A DNA stretch of 50,854 nucleotides from Synergistaceae bacterium (lineage in GTDB: Bacteria > Synergistota > Synergistia > Synergistales > Aminobacteriaceae). Made by a program: the position numbers and the translations under genes. Of the stretch, positions 7,259 through 29,858 are shown one piece after another (within the stretch, counting starts at the first letter, position 1; each line of letters begins with the position of its first letter). The DNA lies in NCBI GenBank assembly GCA_017445205.1, contig JAFSUP010000007.1, positions 1 to 50,854 on the forward strand. The letters run 5' to 3'. Below the pieces are notes generated by a model. The model had not been told where the DNA came from. It ran no database searches and saw only the letters and a program-made list of their open reading frames with translations.

Positions 7259-10200
7259 TTATTCCTCCGAAGTTATATAAGTTCCGTTTATAATTTTTAG
7301 CAAAGTGTGGCCAATATCATTGATTTCATCAGGTTTCCAGATTGTAATAACGTCCAACATGTCGCCACGTTTTCGTTGCATAGCATTGAAGGCCGCGTTA
7401 TCGTGAAAACTTTTTTCTTGAGTGTCAGCAACTAGCACAGCCTTTGCGTTTATGCCGAATTGATGAGCTAATGCAGCCAACTTAAAATAAAATTCTTGTG
7501 AAATATCAGAACGTGCTTTGCATTCGACAAATAAACTTCTGAATCCTTTTGTGAGAACACAGTCAAATTCACTTTTTACTTCAGTGCCCTTCCAGTTTAC
7601 TTCAAAACTGCTTGCAACGTCATCAAATTTTCCAAGTTCTTTGACTTTATGTGATGTGTAAATTTCTAAAATTTTTCCTGCTGTAGTTAAAAGTTCCTTG
7701 ATTGTGCCGGTTGCGTATGTAAAGCTAATTTTTGTATCTTGATTTTGATTCACGCATAAATCAAGAATGTATCCCTTATTTTTGAAAAACTTCAGTAAAG
7801 AAAGGATTTCAGCAGGTCTACTTCCTGTAATTTGAAGATCTTTTACAACAAGACCATTGAAAATTACTTTGACTTCATGACGTTTTGTATCGAGAAAAAG
7901 CCTTACGTCATCAGGAAGCATGAGGGCATAAACATTTGCAAACAGGCTATCATATTCAGCGAGAGCATTACAACGATCCGCAATAACGACCTGACAAGAA
8001 TCAGCAGTGTAATTTCTAACATAGCTTTCTTTTTCTAAAATTTCTTGTGTTTTCAAGTAGTCGATGATTTTAGATACAGTTTTTCTGCACATAGATGGAA
8101 GAATGTAAGTGTATATTTTTGCATCATTGCTTTTTTCATGCTGTTGAGTCCTCCTAAACGAGGCTATAATGTCATTTTTATCGGAATACTCGGCCAAAAT
8201 ATCACACGTAAGTTTCCAAAATCCTGGTTTTTCGCAATATTTAGCCCAAAGTTCTTTGTAATCTTCGAAAAATTCAGATTGAACGCCTCGTTCCCCCGAA
8301 GAAAGATTGAATGTAGCCATGTCCGAAACAGTTATATAAGGTCTTTTTGTGATATATTCAAGCATATCACAGCCATCAATATCATAAAATTTGATGTTGT
8401 ATGAATCAAAGCTGTAACTTGCAAACGAGTTATATAAACCGCTCCCTTGCAACATGTAAGAAAGGATCGTAGAATTCTTTTCGAGCGCGAAGAAGCGTTT
8501 ATTTTTTGCTCTTTGTTTTAGATACGACTTCAATTTTCGAGAAATGCTTTCAGGATAAGAGAACGTTATAATCTTAATTTGCCTGATTTTTCCATTTCCA
8601 ACTTCAAGCAAACTTTCTTTAAGTTCGTCAATCACAAAATTTTTTGTATTTTTGCAAATTAAGACAAATTCAACATTTGCATTGAAATTCTTCTTTCTCA
8701 TGTATTCAATGACATATGGAACGTATTCACAAAGCGCGTTAAAATCTTCGTTTGTTTCAACAAGGCACAAGTATATAATATTTGATGGGCCGGCGACTGT
8801 CGCTGCTGAAACATTTCCAAATACAGAGGTATTATCACCAAAAGCAAACGGAACTACTAAATATGCCTCTTCAGTGTAAGTGAGTATAAATGGTATGTTA
8901 TCAACAAGTGCCATATCGTCGTTTTTGAAGTTACGATATTCCATGCTTGCTAATATTGGCCTGAAAATAGTTTCTAATGCATTAATTTGTTCTTCTAAAG
9001 CTATTTTGCGTTCACTAGTGAATTTATCCGTTATTTTCAAAAAAGTATTTTTCAAACTTTTATACAAGGGAGCCTTGGAAATGTCACCATTTTGTATATC
9101 TCTCATACAAGCTAACCACTCTTCAAACGCTGTAACAGCTTGTTTATTATCGTCAATTAGCGTTGAAATTCCAATCAAAATATTATTTAAAAGTGGATTA
9201 TGAATTTCTTTTATTACTTTTGCTTTTTTTAGAAACATCAAATGCAGTTCTACAGACATTCTGTCGAGATCATCGAGCTTACTAAGTTCGGTTTCTGACA
9301 TTGTATCCCATTTTGTAAGATCAGTATATTCATGAGCTAGTTTCTGATCTGGCCTGCTTTTTCTGATACAAATGTGAAGTTTTTGTTTTTCATTTTTGGT
9401 ATTACTAGAGCTAATGCATTGTTCTATATCTTGTAAAGTTCGCCAACCACTACAAATTTTCTCTGTAACCCATCTCCGATGCTCAATCCATATTAACTCA
9501 TTTCGGAGTGTACGATTTTTCTTGTTAAAAATTATCTCTTTGAAAATTTTAGCAGCCTCACTAAAGCTAAAAACATCGAGGTTTATCCCCATGCTAAATA
9601 ATTTATATTTTAAAGAAAAAACACTTGATATACAAGAATCATGATTATAATTTCTCTTGTAGTCTGATTTTATGCTCCTAAGTCCGATGTTTAGATTTTT
9701 TTCCCAAACTAGATGAGTATTGAAGGCCATTCGTTCAATTTCAGGATACAATGCCAATTTTTTTATATCTTTATTTATGTATAACGGGCAAATTCCTGAG
9801 TCCTTTTGCTGCATTTTATTATTTTCATAAATGTAGCTTATAAAACAGTTTATATCTAAAATTTCTGTCGAAGTCTTGAAAGTTTGAGCTACTTTATAAT
9901 TCAGTTCGTCCTGACCTAATGCAACAAAAATGTAATGTGGAGGCTGATTATCATGGCATTGGCAAATAAGATTCTCTAAAGCAGTTGTATCAACACCTTC
10001 TTCTTCGTTCAGTTTGGTTATTATAAATGAAACGTTCCCATAATTCTCATCATCCGAATTAGCTCCATCTATATTAAAGAAATTAGGTAATGCCGGCCTT
10101 TCAGATAAATAAATTTCCTTAAAAGCTACATCATCAGATACAACTACAACATTCAATTTTTTGTTGCGAAGCTGGCCATTTTGAAGGCATATATCAAGAA

Positions 10201-11428
10201 ATTTTTGTCCATGTTTACCTAGTCCAACGATAAGAACATTTATGCTATCTGAATCTGGACAAGATTGATAAAGCGGATTTTTATACAAATGATACTGAAT
10301 TGCAAGTGAAGAATTTCTATCTTTTTGCGTATCCAATAATTTTTCAACATCTGCCAAAATCCATTTTTGATTATCTTGTCTTAATTGTGTAAATTCAGAT
10401 GGCAACGCATAAAACAGGGCTATTTGAAGATCCGAAAGAATTTCTTCACACCTAGCGTAGCGATATGTTCTTTCACACAGACACTTACGTAGCATTGTAG
10501 TTAAAATATTTCTCAATCTAGGGTGTGAATTAGCTTCTGACGCCTGTATTAATAAAGAATCATCAACAAATTCATTAAGTCTGTCATAATACTCAGTTTT
10601 ATAATTTCCACCGTTTTTTTCAATTTCATCAGATACAACAATCGCACGAAATAATGTTGCACCGATTGAGTAAATATCCGTCTGGTTATCAGCGGTTTCA
10701 TAGCCTGCTTCAGGTTCCATATATCCTCTTGTACCGATGGCGGTTGTATCATTTGCATAAACAGAGCATAATGAATTTATGTCAAATAATGATAACGTCT
10801 GAGTTAATGTCTGATCGCCGCGCTTCAAAAAACCAAAATTTGAAGGCTTAATATCGCGATGAATCACCCCCATAGAATGAAGTATGCAAATACATTTTGT
10901 AAGAGAATCTATTGCCGTCAATACAGTTAATAACTTATGTTCAGGCTTATAAGTTGGCGATTCATGAATTTTTTTACAAATTACATCAAAAGTTTCTAAT
11001 TCAGGCGTGGGCGTCCAAATATAGGTGGTGCCTATTATGTTTCCGTATTCATCGCAACCGTGATAAATTTCAAAAATTGGTATAAATGTTGATATATCTT
11101 GATTACTATCACTTTGTTTAGCTGCAAGCAACATTTCATAAGGCTGAATGTACTCTTTTTCTAATTCTGTAAAATTTTTATTGAGTTCATGGAAATCTGA
11201 AGAACACAACAATTGACCGTTTTTATCTCGAACTAAGCCGAGGATATTTTTAGGGTAAAATTCCTTCAAAACTCCTCTTCCACTTTTTTCGTGATAGGCT
11301 TCGTAACAGATAGAAAATGCCCCTTCATCGTTGATCATTTTAGTAATTGTAAATGTTCGCTTGAATACAATTCCGTCACTTACAGCACAAAGAAGAATTT
11401 TATTTTTTAAATATTTTCTTTTATTCAT
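7259..11428 (-). CDS. Ser/Thr kinase - RCK-like - RyR-like - Card1/Can2-like nuclease fusion
   Basis: 1389 residues. Residues about 20-345 form a protein kinase: K55 in VLKEF, HRDIKPSN at 190-197, D216 of a DFG-equivalent that reads DIN, then GTRGYMEPE. Residues about 394-540 form a Rossmann domain (VLIVGLGKHG) like TrkA-N/RCK. Residues about 640-735 carry EHRRWVTEKICSGW and a later DLDRM, a diverged RyR-like segment. Residues 843-960 are an alpha/beta domain I cannot name; a CARF-like sensor is possible by position. Residues about 1245-1380 match the PD-(D/E)xK nuclease of the Card1/Can2 (DUF1887) type: SEFDCVLTKG with D1289, then E1302 and K1304 in VECK. The start overlaps the phosphatase gene by 4 bases. 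No membrane segment is visible. The inferred role is a nuclease effector controlled by phosphorylation and a ligand. The kinase call is firm, the nuclease good, the others moderate. Confidence 0.78.
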   Translation of the reverse strand: MNKRKYLKNKILLCAVSDGIVFKRTFTITKMINDEGAFSICYEAYHEKSGRGVLKEFYPKNILGLVRDKNGQLLCSSDFHELNKNFTELEKEYIQPYEMLLAAKQSDSNQDISTFIPIFEIYHGCDEYGNIIGTTYIWTPTPELETFDVICKKIHESPTYKPEHKLLTVLTAIDSLTKCICILHSMGVIHRDIKPSNFGFLKRGDQTLTQTLSLFDINSLCSVYANDTTAIGTRGYMEPEAGYETADNQTDIYSIGATLFRAIVVSDEIEKNGGNYKTEYYDRLNEFVDDSLLIQASEANSHPRLRNILTTMLRKCLCERTYRYARCEEILSDLQIALFYALPSEFTQLRQDNQKWILADVEKLLDTQKDRNSSLAIQYHLYKNPLYQSCPDSDSINVLIVGLGKHGQKFLDICLQNGQLRNKKLNVVVVSDDVAFKEIYLSERPALPNFFNIDGANSDDENYGNVSFIITKLNEEEGVDTTALENLICQCHDNQPPHYIFVALGQDELNYKVAQTFKTSTEILDINCFISYIYENNKMQQKDSGICPLYINKDIKKLALYPEIERMAFNTHLVWEKNLNIGLRSIKSDYKRNYNHDSCISSVFSLKYKLFSMGINLDVFSFSEAAKIFKEIIFNKKNRTLRNELIWIEHRRWVTEKICSGWRTLQDIEQCISSSNTKNEKQKLHICIRKSRPDQKLAHEYTDLTKWDTMSETELSKLDDLDRMSVELHLMFLKKAKVIKEIHNPLLNNILIGISTLIDDNKQAVTAFEEWLACMRDIQNGDISKAPLYKSLKNTFLKITDKFTSERKIALEEQINALETIFRPILASMEYRNFKNDDMALVDNIPFILTYTEEAYLVVPFAFGDNTSVFGNVSAATVAGPSNIIYLCLVETNEDFNALCEYVPYVIEYMRKKNFNANVEFVLICKNTKNFVIDELKESLLEVGNGKIRQIKIITFSYPESISRKLKSYLKQRAKNKRFFALEKNSTILSYMLQGSGLYNSFASYSFDSYNIKFYDIDGCDMLEYITKRPYITVSDMATFNLSSGERGVQSEFFEDYKELWAKYCEKPGFWKLTCDILAEYSDKNDIIASFRRTQQHEKSNDAKIYTYILPSMCRKTVSKIIDYLKTQEILEKESYVRNYTADSCQVVIADRCNALAEYDSLFANVYALMLPDDVRLFLDTKRHEVKVIFNGLVVKDLQITGSRPAEILSLLKFFKNKGYILDLCVNQNQDTKISFTYATGTIKELLTTAGKILEIYTSHKVKELGKFDDVASSFEVNWKGTEVKSEFDCVLTKGFRSLFVECKARSDISQEFYFKLAALAHQFGINAKAVLVADTQEKSFHDNAAFNAMQRKRGDMLDVITIWKPDEINDIGHTLLKIINGTYITSEE

Positions 11429-13855: not shown

Positions 13856-13883
13856 CGTATCAATTAACCTCCTTTATGTCTAT

Positions 13884-13910
13884 ATCATACCCCCTAACAT
13901 CGAATGACAA
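13884..13910 (-). promoter_or_regulatory. Candidate promoter of the kinase-nuclease operon
   Basis: On the minus strand, TTGTCA (complement of 13905..13910) and TATGAT (complement of 13884..13889) are separated by 15 bases, a little short for sigma-70. The left arm of an inverted repeat (CCCCCTAACA, 13890..13899) fills most of the spacer, so a protein bound there would block RNA polymerase. Placed by eye. Confidence 0.4.
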
Positions 13911-13946
13911 AATTATAACAGGTGAATCTTTGCATGTGTTAGGGGG
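13890..13946. repeat. 10-bp inverted repeat, possible operator upstream of the defence-like operon
   Basis: CCCCCTAACA at 13890..13899 and its exact complement TGTTAGGGGG at 13937..13946, with 37 bases between. It occupies the gap between the HTH gene and the operon start. Neither strand has a T-run after the second arm, so it is not an intrinsic terminator. A two-site operator for the neighbouring HTH protein is an inference. Confidence 0.6.
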
Positions 13947-13967
13947 GAGGGAAAAATAATCCTACAA

Positions 13968-14471
13968 CTATAATAATTTAGTCATTGCAAGCCTTAATTT
14001 ATCAAGTTGCTGCTCGTACGCTGCGATCTGTTCTTTTAAGATCGCGTTTTCAAATTCCAACGCTGTATAAGTTTTCTGTTCATGGCGTGAAACAGGCTGC
14101 TCTATTGGCGCTGTTTTCTCGGTTGTTGTTGGAATTCCTGCGGGGGTCGGTTTTGCTTTAGTAGCTGCAATTTTCGCATTACGTCTCCATTTTGCGATTG
14201 TCCATTTGCTAACCCCTGCTTCTTCAGCTGCCTTGGCAACTCCGATCTCGGCGGCTCTTGCTAAGATTGCATCGCGTTTTTCAATTTTTATTCGTTTAGC
14301 ATGAGAGCGTTTGGTTACTTTGCGCGAAGCGTTTTGAAGCGCCACGATGACCTGCCACGATGTCCCCAAATCTTTAGCAACATCAACGGCCTTCTGAGTC
14401 TTCAAACGTGCAAGGATAACGGCTTTTTCTTCCTCGGTGAAATCTTTTGTGCTTTGATACACTCTTGGCAT
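13968..14471 (-). CDS. Helix-turn-helix DNA-binding protein with C-terminal coiled coil
   Basis: 167 residues from the ATG at 14471, chosen because GAAAGGACG lies just upstream; an in-frame extension of 13 codons has no such site. Two helix-turn-helix units are visible: KAVDVAKDLGTSWQVIVAL near residues 27-45, and AAEEAGVSKWTIAKWRR near 80-100. A proline/threonine-rich linker follows, then a leucine-rich coiled coil (ALEFENAILKEQIAAYEQQ onward). This pattern suits a dimeric regulator, or the OrfA half of an IS3-type transposase, but no OrfB or terminal repeats are seen. It lies just upstream of the kinase-nuclease operon on the same strand and could regulate it. Confidence 0.7.
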   Translation of the reverse strand: MPRVYQSTKDFTEEEKAVILARLKTQKAVDVAKDLGTSWQVIVALQNASRKVTKRSHAKRIKIEKRDAILARAAEIGVAKAAEEAGVSKWTIAKWRRNAKIAATKAKPTPAGIPTTTEKTAPIEQPVSRHEQKTYTALEFENAILKEQIAAYEQQLDKLRLAMTKLL

Positions 14472-14952: not shown

Positions 14953-15750
14953 ATGCAGCGACTAACTGTAACACCTTGTGGCATAAGCGTTTTTTTAAAT
15001 GGAACACGCTTTGAACACATCAAATTTTTAAAGAAAAATATAAACAAGAGCTACTCTGAATATACGCCAGGAGAACTTAGTGTATTTGAACAAATCTGCA
15101 AAGTTAGACATGATAAGCTAGCACATGCTGAACTTTATGAAGCTAGTACAATGTCAATAGAGCTCAACGGCTTTATTAAATTTTATGATGACAACTTAGA
15201 CGAGGCTACAAAAGATGTTCATTACTTGTTGCATACTGACACTTATCAAGGACAAAGAGCTGCGGAACTTATACAATCTTGGGGTGCTTGCAACAACATT
15301 AAATTTCAACCTGTATTAATAAAAGAAATTAACTTGTTCGATGTTGATGAATTTCAGCTAGGTGTGAATAATCTCGTTAAATGGTGTGCGGAAAAATTGC
15401 CCGCATTTCGTTCACAAGATTATAAAATTATATTTAATCTTTCAGGCGGCTTTAAGTCGTTACAGTATTACATGCAAATTTTAGGAATGTTTTACGCTGA
15501 CGAGATTTTTAGCACTTTTGAAAACTCTGATGAGCTCTTAAAAATACCAATGACGAAAATTTCTTTTTTACCTAATGTCAAAGAAGTTGTAAGAAAAAAT
15601 GTTGATGTATTTCAAAGAATGCAAAATAAAAAAATTTCTCGTAGTGAATGTCTTGATATTCCTGAAAATTTGCTCAACATAGTAAATAATAATTGCTCTG
15701 TTTCCGTGTTTGGTCAAATTGCATTTGAAGAAGTCAAACGGGAAATATAA
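14953..15750 (+). CDS. Stand-alone CARF-domain protein (Cas_APE2256 / TIGR02619-like)
   Basis: 265 residues. The N-terminus RLTVTPCGISVFLNG matches the first strand and loop of the CARF-type Rossmann fold. A middle block HYLLHTDTYQGQRAAELIQ is the second segment, and YKIIFNLSGGFKSLQYYMQILG, with G165-G166, then IFSTFE, is the hallmark C-terminal block. These domains bind cyclic oligoadenylates in type III CRISPR systems, and some are ring nucleases. No HEPN motif (RxxxxxH/RxxxxH) is evident in the C-terminal region, so a sensor or ring-nuclease role is likelier than an RNase effector. GGGAGGA precedes the ATG. It lies 12 bases after the broken glyoxalase and overlaps the convergent HD gene by 17 bases. 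No CRISPR array or cas gene is visible in the window. Confidence 0.8.
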   Translation: MQRLTVTPCGISVFLNGTRFEHIKFLKKNINKSYSEYTPGELSVFEQICKVRHDKLAHAELYEASTMSIELNGFIKFYDDNLDEATKDVHYLLHTDTYQGQRAAELIQSWGACNNIKFQPVLIKEINLFDVDEFQLGVNNLVKWCAEKLPAFRSQDYKIIFNLSGGFKSLQYYMQILGMFYADEIFSTFENSDELLKIPMTKISFLPNVKEVVRKNVDVFQRMQNKKISRSECLDIPENLLNIVNNNCSVSVFGQIAFEEVKREI

Positions 15751-25623: not shown

Positions 25624-26600
25624 AAACTCCAGAAACAAATTTATCGGCTCTGACGCCTGATTCAACGCTTCTACAATTTTTGCGCACTCTGTTCAGCACG
25701 GCTGCCGAGTACGCTGTTTATGTTCCTGATGTCGGCGATGTAATTGTGATTAATAAAGGCCAGCTTATTTCTATGGTTGAGCGCAACTGTGCAGACGCAA
25801 TGATTAAACGCCTGCCGCAGCTGGCTGAACGAAATATTTTTAGGCCGCTCGACGTTTCTGTAATCGAATCGCCGGAGGACTCTGAAGCGCTTTACGTTAA
25901 AAACACCGGGGCTTTTGTTGCGTCGCTTGACCTCGCACTTGACCCCGATGTCCCGCAGTTTCCTGAATGGTGGAACGCTCCTGTGCCGTTTGCAATGTCT
26001 TCGCGAGGAGTTTTGAAGCTCAATGACAGAGCCGTAAGTATGTTTGGAAACGGACTTGAAAAATTAAACGCCGCAGAACTTCCTGACCGTGACGAATTTA
26101 TAGTGCGTCTTGAAGGGCTCAATGGCACGAGATTTATAGCGTTTAGATATTTAAGTCCCGGAATTTTTACGATTGACGACTGCACCGATGACTTGACTGA
26201 CGCTCAGGATATAACGTGGTGGGCTGCAGTCGGTCAGACTTGGGTTAAAGAAATCGAAGCGCGCGGCGGAACGTGGCAAAGATTTTCAAATCCTCCCGAA
26301 GATAAAGATTCAAAAAATTTTCGCGCCTGTGAATGGAACGGAGAAGTTCAAGGATATTTAAGCATCGACGTGCCGAAAAAGAAAATTAAAAATGAAAATT
26401 TAGGAATTAAGGCCGCAAATAAGAACACAAAAAAGAAAAAAATTTCTTCAAATTCGAAAGAAAATATTAAAACTTCGCAGCCAGAATCTGAAATTAAAAA
26501 TCCTGATGACGTAATCGGACATATAGGCCCGCAGGCTATGGCGTTGTTGACAGCGGGACAAACTCGTGAAGGTAACGGCGGAGCAGCTTTTTTGATGTAA
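25620..26600 (+). CDS. Hypothetical protein coupled to FtsY
   Basis: 326 residues starting at a GTG that overlaps the ftsY stop (GTGA), so translation is probably coupled. I do not recognise a named family. Residues about 1-120 and 120-230 look like two alpha/beta modules; the second (FAMSSRGVLKLNDRAVSMFG and later DEFIVRLEGLNGTRFIAFRYL) has a PAS-like flavour but is not convincing. A lysine-rich disordered stretch (about 255-300) leads to a conserved-looking C-terminal tail. No signal peptide or membrane helix. A G-quadruplex hairpin repeat begins 6 bases after the stop. Confidence 0.7.
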   Translation: MKTPETNLSALTPDSTLLQFLRTLFSTAAEYAVYVPDVGDVIVINKGQLISMVERNCADAMIKRLPQLAERNIFRPLDVSVIESPEDSEALYVKNTGAFVASLDLALDPDVPQFPEWWNAPVPFAMSSRGVLKLNDRAVSMFGNGLEKLNAAELPDRDEFIVRLEGLNGTRFIAFRYLSPGIFTIDDCTDDLTDAQDITWWAAVGQTWVKEIEARGGTWQRFSNPPEDKDSKNFRACEWNGEVQGYLSIDVPKKKIKNENLGIKAANKNTKKKKISSNSKENIKTSQPESEIKNPDDVIGHIGPQAMALLTAGQTREGNGGAAFLM

Positions 26601-26605
26601 TCGCA

Positions 26606-26653
26606 GCCGCGCTCGAAGCTCGGGGTGGGCGGGTGGGAGAGCAAGAGCGCGGC
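26606..26653 (+). repeat. G-quadruplex hairpin repeat, copy 4
   Basis: Outer 9-bp stem GCCGCGCTC (26606..26614) / GAGCGCGGC (26645..26653). Compared with copy 2, one base pair differs with both sides changed. An inner stem GCTC/GAGC, also compensated relative to copy 2, closes the loop GGGGTGGGCGGGTGGGA. Confidence 0.8.
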
Positions 26654-26665
26654 ATAAAAAATTAT

Positions 26666-26693
26666 TAAAGTAATGAAAATATTGTTCCGAAAA
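26666..26693 (+). promoter_or_regulatory. Candidate sigma-28 (FliA) promoter of the main flagellin
   Basis: TAAAGTAA at 26666..26673 and TCCGAAAA at 26686..26693, 12 bases apart, compared with the FliA consensus TAAAGTTT-N11-GCCGATAA. It would give a leader of about 315 bases before the flagellin start. Its position ahead of a flagellin gene is what FliA promoters do, but the match is partial. Confidence 0.5.
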
Positions 26694-26756
26694 TGTGAAT
26701 GAACATTGGAAAGGCCGTTACCATTTAGGCCAATTTGTAAAATTTAATTTATTTTT

Positions 26757-26940
26757 GAAACCTTTTCGCGAAAGAGGATAAAGGTTAATTGCAACAAAGC
26801 GCACGCAGCCAACGCCGCAGAATATTCGCAACCCGGTACCCGCATGGAACGGGCGCGAGCGTTTCAGAAGTGGGATAAATCCCGAGGAAAAGATTTCTGC
26901 GAAACGGGCGGGGAACTCTCGATATATAAAGCGCGAGAGG
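26757..26940 (+). promoter_or_regulatory. Structured 5' leader of the flagellin mRNA with alternative stems
   Basis: A GC-rich island in an otherwise AT-rich gap of about 410 bases (26601..27014). Visible pairings: CGCAGAA 26816..26822 with TTCTGCG 26895..26901; CCCG 26839..26842 with CGGG 26850..26853; GGGA 26872..26875 with TCCC 26880..26883. CGAGAG 26934..26939 can pair either with CTCTCG 26916..26921 or, as part of CGCGAGAGG, with CCTTTTCGCG 26761..26770. AACCTTT 26759..26765 can instead pair with AAAGGTT 26780..26786. Such mutually exclusive stems are typical of regulatory leaders. I cannot assign it to a known riboswitch class. The rest of the gap shows no gene. Confidence 0.5.
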
Positions 26941-27014
26941 TGGAATTTTAAGAAAAACTCTTGCACACGGATGGCAGGAGAAATTTACTAAACATTACAG
27001 GGAGGTTTTTTACA

Positions 27015-29858
27015 ATGTCAATGGTAATTCAACACAACATACCGGCTTTACAGAGCTACAACATTGTTAATAACACAAGCAATGCTCTTCAGAAGTCGAT
27101 AGCGAAACTTTCAAGCGGTCTTCGCATTAACTCAGCTGCAGACGACGCCGCAGGCCTTGCAATCAGCGAGAAAATGCGCGCACAGATTAGCGGACTCGAC
27201 CGTGCAGTAGCCAACACTCAGGACGGCATCAGCCTTATCCAGACAGCTGAAGGCGCACTCGGCGAGACTCACTCAATCCTTCAGAGAATGCGCGAGCTTT
27301 CAGTTCAGGCAGCCAACGACACACTGACCCAGCAGGACAGAAGCTATATCCAGGAAGAAATCGGGCAGCTTAACGAGGAAATTACCCGTATCGGCAACAC
27401 GACACAGTTCAACAAAAAGAAACTCCTCAACGGCGACGCCGCAGCACTCTGGAGCAGCAGCGACAGCGAAACAAAAGCTATCGTTAAAGGCGGTCTTCGT
27501 GAAATCGACCAGTTCGGCCAGAAGAGATCAGTCGAAGGCAACTACAAGATCAGCGTTAAAGCTGACCCCGGGCAGGGCGAAGTTCAGAAGTCGGACATCA
27601 TGAAAATTAAACATGATAACGTCGTAATGAACAAGACCGTCAACAGCAACGCTGGCGTAGAAGATTTCACGGTTAATAACGTACCGGCCGGCAGCTACAA
27701 GCTTTCTTATACGACGAACGCACCTGCCGCCAATGAGCAGCTTACAGCAGCTTACGGAATCGGCGGTCCGATGCAGCAAACGACCAGTACGTTCACTTTC
27801 AACGGAACGACCGGCCCCGTAACAAAGATCACCGTTTCGACAGATGACGGAGTTGAAATTTGGTCAACCAGCGGCACTGACATTTTCGGAACTGGCGATA
27901 ATGGTGCGCCTTCTGAGCTTGAACAAGCGTTCTTTGACGGAACGGTTGACTATACAGGTGCCGATACGCCTGTTGCTGACAACGATGGGAATAACCACTC
28001 CTATTCAGGCGTTAGAGACGAGATCGTTAAAGCTGCTAAAGAAAAGGGAATCTCTCTCACTGGCGATTTCACAAACGGCATTACCGCCACGAAAGTTGGC
28101 AATAACAAAGCAGCCGGTATTAAGATCACTTATGAAGGCGGCGGAGTCACTGACGCAAGCCCGGTGTCATCCATTGATGATACTCAGACGGCCAATGCTG
28201 ACCCTGCGACCGGTGTATTTACGTTCGCTTCCAACGATATCGTTGACAACGCAAGCATTCTCTTTGAAGTTACCAATGTTGACCAGGTGAACCGTGCAGT
28301 TACCCTCAAAGCGACGGCTCAGACAATGTCAGAGAACGGCACAACCTCAACATCAACGCAGGACAACATCGTTCTTTCGCTTGGCGCAGACCCATCGAGT
28401 GACAACCCCAATACGGTTGACCTTAGCGATCTTCTCAACGTTACTGACGGAGGCACAGCCGCGCAGATTTCGTTGGTAGACACAACTGGTTTCCTTTCGA
28501 TTCAGGACGGTGCGAAGTTCGTCTATTCAGTAACACCGCAGGGCTTGACCGCAGGCGGCAGCAACGAACTTAGAATCAATATTGATTCTTCAATCGACAG
28601 CACTTGGGACGAGAAATGGGACGGCGGTCCTTTCCGCGGCCAGCAGCCTCAGTACTTGTTAGATGCTGATAAAGTTGCAAACGCTGAGCTTGATTTCAAC
28701 CAGTTCTATCTCAACGAGAAGACCGGAACAGTCGATATGGGGACACTCACCCTTAAGACCAACAATGACTTCAAGTACACGAACGGTGCTCTTGACACTG
28801 GTTTGAATAATCCTATTCAGGACGGCGATGTTCTTGCTAGCGGCGATGTTGCGTATATCGGCAAAGTTGCAACCGGCGACACGAAGCTCCGCGACCTTGA
28901 CAAGTTCTGGAACTCAGAGGGAACTTTCCTTCTTGACGATCCCAAGACGATCACGCTTAATCAGGGCAACGGCAGCACCGCTTCAGTGACGCTTTACGCG
29001 AACGACACGCTTGACGACGTAGCAAAGAAGCTTAATAACGCGATAGCCAATGACCTCGGCCAGAGCAAATACGTCAATGACTCATCGAAGTTTGCGACAT
29101 TTGTCAGCGGCGGTTCAAAAGAATCCGAATCGGTTGATGGTACATTCATTCTCCGTTCAGTTGTTCCCGGCAAAGACGGCGAAATCACACTTTCCGGCGA
29201 CGAGCAGGTGTTGAACGCTTTCTCACTGAACACGATTCAGGAATCAAAAGAAACGAAATACACCGTCAACGTTACTGACGCTCACACCGGCGCAACAGTC
29301 GCGCAAGATGTCAAAGTAACGGGCAACGTAGCTCACGGCTTAATTTCCGAAAACGTTGATGTTGAGTTCAGCGCACTTGGCGGAGTCAACGCTACATGGA
29401 ACGACAAACTCAAAAAGTTCGATTACTCGTCAACAACGCAGGATTCAGTTCTTCACCTTTCCGACAACACCACAGTGCTTCAAATTGGTGCAAACGAAGG
29501 CGAAGACATGGGCCTCAATATCGGCGATATGCGTTCACACGCTCTCGGACTTGACGGAGTTAACGTTATGAGCCATGATAGAGCAGCTCGCTCAATCACG
29601 ATCATCGACAACGCTATCGACAAAGTTTCGACACAGCGCGCTAAACTCGGTGCTTACCAGAACAGACTCGAGTACACAGCGAATAACTTGACGACGGCCA
29701 GCGAGAACCTGACCTCCGCAGAGAGCAGAATCCGCGACGCCGACATGGCGAAGGAAATGATGCAGTTCACGAAACTTAACATCATGCTTCAGGCTGGTAA
29801 CTCAATGCTTGCACAAGCAAACCAGCAGCCTCAGAACGTCCTCAGCCTGATCCGTTAG
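27015..29858 (+). CDS. Giant flagellin (main filament protein), 947 residues
   Basis: Structural subunit of the flagellar filament. Start at the ATG at 27015, 9 bases after CAGGGAGG; an upstream in-frame start lies in the leader and has no such site. The N-terminal D0/D1 region (residues 1-170) is textbook: [20 protein letters not shown], then [16 protein letters not shown] and [19 protein letters not shown]. The C-terminal 75 residues form the matching helix and end in VLSLIR. Between them lie about 700 residues of variable, probably surface-exposed sequence, including a flagellin_IN-like block ([11 protein letters not shown]). Codons are strongly biased (CAG, AAC, GAC), unlike the neighbours, as expected for very high expression. 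Preceded by a sigma-28-like promoter and structured leader, followed by a terminator. Most flagellins have 270-500 residues. Confidence 0.94.

Follow-up and report, generated by a model that had tools for sequence, protein, structure and literature searches.

What purpose might be served by the long untranslated region ahead of the main flagellin gene of a Synergistaceae bacterium? In the window (the whole 50,854-nt stretch of DNA analyzed here), the intergenic stretch 26601–27014 lies between an ORF that ends at 26600 and has no Pfam match and the main flagellin gene (27015–29858; Flagellin_N, E 9.2e-46; Flagellin_C, E 1.4e-29); this gene and all leader features described below are on the + strand. 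The initial annotation of the region had suggested a sigma-28-like promoter, a leader of about 315 nt with mutually exclusive stems, and control by a ligand or a protein.

A search with the leader plus gene start gave some match in all 43 genomes of the genus (43/43), and leaders readable from promoter to ATG were recovered from 33 of them, corresponding to 32 distinct sequences (L026 is identical to L025 and was dropped from the counts). Among the ten genomes without a readable leader, G024 carries a tandem flagellin array, in G029 the sequence stops at a contig edge, and in the remaining eight the search for a main-type flagellin start returned other flagellins or weak matches only. A sigma-28-type promoter (TAAAGT, N15, CCGA region) occupies positions 26666–26693 of the window, with TAAAGT at 26666 and CCGA at 26687–26690. 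The pattern TAAAGT-N(13–16)-CCGA is present in 32/32 distinct congeneric leaders (mean 0.12 and maximum 2 out of 32 in shuffled upstream DNA), 197–393 nt upstream of the main flagellin ATG and with a spacer of 15 in 31/32. Promoter geometry would place the transcription start at ∼26700, giving an untranslated leader of ∼315 nt (26700–27014), in agreement with the original proposal; the corresponding estimates across the genus are 164–360 nt. A start close to the ATG would refute this picture, and within the limits of sequence analysis the region offered no strong promoter candidate nearer to the gene: a pattern script detected no second sigma-28-like or sigma-70-like match near the ATG of the 32 leaders, and a looser scan returned a single weak sigma-70-like match (26989–27016), at about the level of shuffles. 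Overall, the product of this promoter is predicted to be a late, sigma-28-dependent flagellin mRNA with a long, conserved and structured leader. Our literature search (including the text of PMC8040213, with most subscription papers outside its scope) found no description of this leader.

The whole leader folds with an unremarkable energy (z −0.94; matched by 19 of 100 shuffles), so that energy alone would miss the structure, which is revealed by the comparison of species. RNAalifold applied to a simple MAFFT alignment of 29 full-length leaders yielded almost no structure because the length of one hairpin (P3, see below) varies greatly, and the helices were therefore tested individually. In the arm-swap test used for this purpose, the arms of each helix are exchanged between species; phylogeny is outside its model, and parsimony on a tree built with FastTree from 300 nt of flagellin (fewer for three sequences) provided a partial answer on that point. 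The variants of the P2 loop and most anchors were picked by eye ahead of the tests.

The 3′ part of the leader contains two hairpins and the Shine-Dalgarno sequence. Hairpin P4 (26916–26939; CUCUCG/CGAGAG, 26916–26921 paired with 26934–26939) is essentially the pairing of 26916–26921 with 26932–26940 foreseen in the initial annotation, and it is borne out by covariation, with 5/6 pairs changed on both sides. It is directly followed by a GGA (26942–26944; pattern present in 23/32 leaders), a possible third contact for CsrA. Hairpin P5 (26958–26980), with the loop ACACGGAUG and a GGA at 26969–26971, is the proposed upstream CsrA site; all of its pairs (7/7) are changed on both sides, its arm-swap z is −8.1 (0/2000 permutations, 32 leaders) and its local fold z is −4.5. 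The proposed second site is the Shine-Dalgarno sequence itself (ACAGGGAGG, 26997–27005), whose GGA (27001–27003) is 32 nt away from that of P5. For P4 and P5 together, 12/13 pairs are changed on both sides, with a covariation of 0.376 (0.183±0.016 when shuffled, ≤0.219 when slid), and parsimony on the flagellin tree counts 29 double compensatory and 15 single pair-keeping changes alongside 32 changes to and 20 from broken pairs. In the P5 alignment 77% of cells are paired, the imperfection being due to a one-base shift of the stem register between groups. The P5 GGA is predicted to be unpaired (≥0.85) in 28/32 leaders and mostly paired in the folds of the other 4/32; under a strict contiguous-stem rule, a GGA-loop hairpin is scored in only 20/32 genus leaders.

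Columns invariant across the 32 leaders include the P5 GGA and, at the Shine-Dalgarno, ACA.GGAGGT. The motif ACAnGGAG is found at the flagellin Shine-Dalgarno in 32/32 genus leaders vs 0/13 other Shine-Dalgarno-bearing ORFs of the window. The distance between the two GGAs is 21–46 nt in the genus, mostly 30–38, and an excess of GGA is limited to the last 110 nt (4.56 per leader vs 3.28 in shuffles). The SELEX consensus for CsrA is RUACARGGAUGU with ACA and GGA invariant, according to PMC7652899. The P5 loop departs from the CsrA consensus in having C for a purine (ACAC instead of ACAR) and, in the window, 9 rather than 6 nucleotides. A hairpin enclosing the Shine-Dalgarno (UACA/UGUA) is unsupported in the genus of the window (arm-swap z +1.2). 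Taken as a whole, the 3′ end of the leader has the layout expected of a CsrA target with two sites, as judged from its motifs and helices.

The genome that carries the window has adjacent csrA and fliW genes (contig C33, 29464–30047), and within the genus CsrA is encoded in 41/43 and FliW in 40/43 genomes. The best matches of its CsrA are PDB 1T3O and chain D of 5DMB, and that of its FliW is chain A of 5DMB, a structure of FliW together with CsrA. The invariant motifs, the csrA and fliW genes and the published two-site CsrA leaders combined make FliW-CsrA control the preferred interpretation of the 3′ module, and we consider it probable that the flagellin leader of this sigma-28-dependent late mRNA is under FliW-CsrA homeostasis. 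By analogy with Bacillus subtilis and Campylobacter jejuni, from which we infer CsrA binding, repression and partner switching at this leader, a CsrA dimer would dock on the GGA loop of P5 (26958–26980) and bridge 32 nt to the Shine-Dalgarno (26997–27005), excluding the ribosome. FliW would strip CsrA from the message and cytoplasmic flagellin would titrate FliW, so that translation would open after hook completion, as flagellin leaves the cytoplasm. Thus, of the two kinds of control originally envisaged, the protein-responsive one is favored from sequence (CsrA and FliW), and no positive evidence was obtained for a ligand, c-di-GMP included. CsrA leaves the 200-nt domain upstream of this module unexplained.

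This domain comprises three helices and a conserved strip. The 5′-proximal hairpin P1 (26713–26731; GGCC/GGCC) gave arm-swap z values of −5.5 (duplex) and −6.4 (cofold gain), with 0/2000 permutations, in 27/32 leaders (L019, L046 and L053, divergent or with an insert, and L034 and L045, with an arm of ≤5 nt, were excluded; L011 and L012, whose windows are off by one anchor, were retained). P2 (26759–26786) is an inverted repeat around CGCG, with an inner stem (26761–26766/26772–26777; arm-swap z −5.1 for 24 unique sequences, 0/5000 permutations) and an alternative outer stem (26759–26765/26780–26786). Between P2 and P3 the alignment shows a conserved strip, A3 (GCAACAAAGCG, 26791–26801). P3 (26808–26909) is a long irregular hairpin, in the window fold paired at 26808–26810/26907–26909 and 26816–26822/26895–26901; its arms gave a z of −7.2 (0/2000 permutations, 25 leaders). 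The apical stem of P3 (26846–26865; GGAACG/CGUUUC), which carries the near-invariant loop GGCGCGAG, has 6/6 pairs changed on both sides and a covariation of 0.389 vs 0.208 when shuffled (23 of the 25 motif-bearing leaders, L015 and L030 being excluded), as well as an arm-swap z of −6.6 (0/2000 permutations, 25 leaders). By eye, in the clade of the window (L009–L013), CGUUUC at 26860–26865 could pair with the 3′ GAAACG at 26901–26906 rather than with the apical 5′ GGAACG. The leader sequences compared show that P3 has been lost in several species of the genus. The check suggested at the outset, covariation among Synergistota flagellin leaders, applied here within the genus, revealed pairing conserved in relatives and more helices than had been noticed at first.

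The domain P1–P3 (∼200 nt) occurs once per genome, at the main flagellin gene, and its conservation and covariation indicate that it is a real, lineage-specific structured addition to the flagellin leader. We rejected the idea that it acts as a CsrA sponge: the 5′ part is not enriched in GGA (2.88 per leader vs 2.95 in shuffles), and a GGA in the P2 loop occurs in only 13/21 leaders of that class. A conserved reading frame, an Rfam match and a conserved link to the Shine-Dalgarno were all sought for P1–P3, and none was found. This domain may also have a role beyond CsrA. Its putative function, at a little short of an even chance, would be that of a protective and insulating cap structure at the start of a highly abundant transcript; the remaining probability may be divided among an RNA–RNA contact, a ligand, and an input from a small RNA or a second protein. 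A bolder view, possible though on balance doubtful, is that P1–P3 represents a novel class of cis-regulatory RNA structure, known so far only from Synergistaceae flagellin leaders, that would supplement the CsrA-FliW brake with a second input or an RNA–RNA contact (via the loops of P2 and P3, which are self-complementary), e.g. for dimerization or localization of the message.

Could this domain be instead the aptamer of a ligand riboswitch, with c-di-GMP or another metabolite steering alternative stems that gate the ribosome site? It is a large, conserved, single-copy structured domain upstream of one gene, and one strand of P2 has two possible partners. Among known systems, c-di-GMP riboswitches (GEMM classes) are likewise found upstream of motility genes. 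However, unlike those classes, the window leader has no match in Rfam: a search with this leader and five related loci gave none at the gathering threshold and only chance-level scores below it. The upstream domain also lacks any conserved pairing with the Shine-Dalgarno, as the 5′ strand of P2 fails as an anti-Shine-Dalgarno (z −1.1) and the 32 folded leaders have no consistent Shine-Dalgarno partner, the partners differing by species. The long-range helix that had been proposed between 26761–26770 and 26932–26940 reaches −12.3 kcal/mol in the window only; across 25 species its z is −1.9 and 146/5000 permutations reach the native value (L015, L016, L025, L030, L034, L046 and L053, with P4 missing or different, were excluded from the 32). 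No terminator-like site was detected in a scan for intrinsic terminators over 26600–27020. The other suggested alternative, 26759–26765 with 26780–26786 (the outer stem of P2), can form and is without covariation (z −0.2), unlike the inner partner 26772–26777, which covaries with the same 5′ strand. Hence, what is left of the mutually exclusive stems is one local competition within P2, on paper, and not a long-range switch. Moreover, riboswitch aptamers usually recur at several genes with their core retained, while this domain occurs only at flagellin, in a single genus and, as traces, in another, and several species have dispensed with P3. The riboswitch is therefore very unlikely, and FliW-CsrA-flagellin homeostasis is preferred over it as the best reading.

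Other explanations concern P2, the P3 loop or the coding capacity of the leader. P2 might act as DNA, being an operator for a dimeric transcription factor, with only P1 and P3–P5 acting as RNA. An inverted repeat would covary in either form, CCTTTTCGCGAAAAGG is at best a perfect dyad at the DNA level, and the central 4 nt are self-complementary in TCGCG, TGCGCA, TAGCTA and CTATAG (variants picked by eye). Yet P2 lies amid RNA helices at ∼60 nt from the predicted 5′ end of the transcript, and a search of the 43 genus genomes located ACCTTTTCGCGAWNARGATA with ≤1 mismatch at 7 places, all of them flagellin leaders, and with 2 mismatches at another 11; there is accordingly no sign of a regulon, P2 was rejected as a genus-wide operator, and we regard the operator as unlikely. 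The loops of P2 (CGCG) and P3 (GCGCGAG) might alternatively kiss, joining two flagellin mRNAs or P2 to P3 and aiding packing, storage or localization. The retention of self-complementarity in three divergent P2 variants and the invariance of GCGCGA in the P3 loop of 23 aligned leaders speak for this, as does the polar localization of flaA mRNA under the CsrA-FliW network of C. jejuni (PMC4894983). The palindrome count, on the other hand, amounts to few events judged by eye, and kissing between P2 and P3 was rejected as a requirement, given that CGCG persists in the P2 of leaders without P3 and that L030 has P3 together with UAGCUA in P2. We assign the kissing loops a small probability. Still more improbable, to the point of being scarcely credible, is a short CDS or leader peptide with the conserved blocks as codons. 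Stop-free runs of 100 and 99 codons do exist in L023 and L027, but over the 32 leaders such runs barely exceed shuffles (mean z 0.46), for which this candidate was rejected, and the spacing of the conserved blocks varies in single-base steps.

Models were built for P1-P2-A3 (R1, from 16/20 segments; searched over 65 loci) and P4-P5-Shine-Dalgarno (R2, from 20/25 segments; searched over 32, then 57 loci). At the genome level R1 was found at one place per genome in 21/43 genus genomes (E≤0.01) and R2 in 31/43; weak short-type leaders were missed in these counts because of the stricter filters applied, and the short-type leaders (without P3) match R1 weakly. In 38 other genomes of the family, R2 had no match and R1 a single weak one (G048, 34 bits), which we discarded as chance, as that genome lacks a flagellin match at E≤1e-15. 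A second R2 match in the window (13865–13986, E 0.002) was likewise attributed to chance, a long insert replacing the GGA loop. Among 40 flagellin leaders from other genera, a GGA-loop hairpin is present in 22 (shuffle mean 4.0, maximum 9), ACAnGGAG in 22 and CA(n)GGAGG in 36, and among 33 mostly Bacillota loci (hand-picked out of 80, with a rough start finder) the hairpin is found in 22/33 and CA..GGAG in 27/33. The hairpin-plus-Shine-Dalgarno module is thus also present ahead of many of the flagellin genes examined in Bacillota and in other genera of the Synergistaceae.

P1–P3, in turn, appears to be nearly exclusive to the genus, a second genus (g11) showing traces of it. An A3-like GCANNAARGCG is present in 5/5 leaders of g11, which account for all 5/40 among other-genus leaders (0.36 in shuffles). 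By eye, g11 also has a palindrome AGCGCU at the place of P2 (preceded by GAAACC in 2/5) and a 5′-proximal hairpin in the three leaders with a readable promoter. The strip, the palindrome and the 5′ hairpin suggest that the upstream domain may predate the genus.

Several further observations were made along the way, by eye where so stated. In g11 (L096, L098–L100, L133), the last 25 nt before the ATG place the Shine-Dalgarno inside a hairpin, AUUCC-AAGGA-GGAAU by eye (in L098 with the arms AAAAAC...GUUUUU), which puts the GGA in a loop, as in flaA of C. jejuni and unlike the genus of the window. The tandem array of G024 (contigs C33 and C84; L047–L051) consists of similar flagellin genes with, by eye, copies bearing just a P5-like hairpin and Shine-Dalgarno; the sigma-28 promoter is absent from L047–L050. 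In the genus g17 (L110, L113, L130), GGCGCGAGAGCGUA, located some 120 nt before the ATG, is similar to the apical loop of P3 in the genus of the window, but GCGCGAG taken by itself does not exceed chance level in other genera (4/40 vs 2.07 in shuffles). A second flagellin (MRIYHNIPALTAYN...; L052, L055–L064, with the copy of the window's own genome, L059, at G000:C23) is preceded by a separate sigma-28-like promoter, located at −117 to −182 in the leaders read. Its leader, short and of a different kind, terminates in GCAGGAGG and carries CA(n)GGAGG in 11/11 cases; it is possibly a CsrA target too. Elsewhere in the window, a 1389-aa protein matching protein kinase and Card1-like endonuclease domains (7259–11428, − strand) and, near it, a Cas_APE2256 protein (14953–15750, + strand) are possible CRISPR-signaling defense genes.

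The proposed reading places a FliW-CsrA flagellin brake, by sequence and covariation, in Synergistota, which are known mostly through gut metagenomes, and describes a conserved 200-nt RNA domain on an mRNA that is probably among the most abundant of the cell. In addition, it replaces a loose riboswitch conjecture by a binding hypothesis open to direct test. Among the known systems, the closest is the hag leader of B. subtilis, where CsrA binds at two sites, one over the Shine-Dalgarno (PMC7652899). The leader studied here has two candidate sites, one of them likewise on the Shine-Dalgarno, and fliW and csrA in its genome; it differs in its length of 164–360 nt with the extra conserved helices P1–P4, in belonging to another phylum and in being known from sequence alone. 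The flaA leader of C. jejuni (45 nt) has two GGA stem-loops, SL1 and SL2, one at the ribosome site (PMC4894983). It shares with the present leader ANGGA in hairpin loops, a site on the ribosome-binding region and compensatory changes among relatives; its GGA spacing is 21 nt (32 nt in the window), and the hairpin over its Shine-Dalgarno is the element unsupported in our genus. In E. coli glgC, similarly, a high-affinity hairpin site tethers a CsrA dimer that reaches the Shine-Dalgarno, the gene being a different one and FliW being absent from Gammaproteobacteria (PMC7652899). Set against these systems, the novelty predicted here is a FliW-CsrA flagellin leader of a known type that carries a large extra domain.
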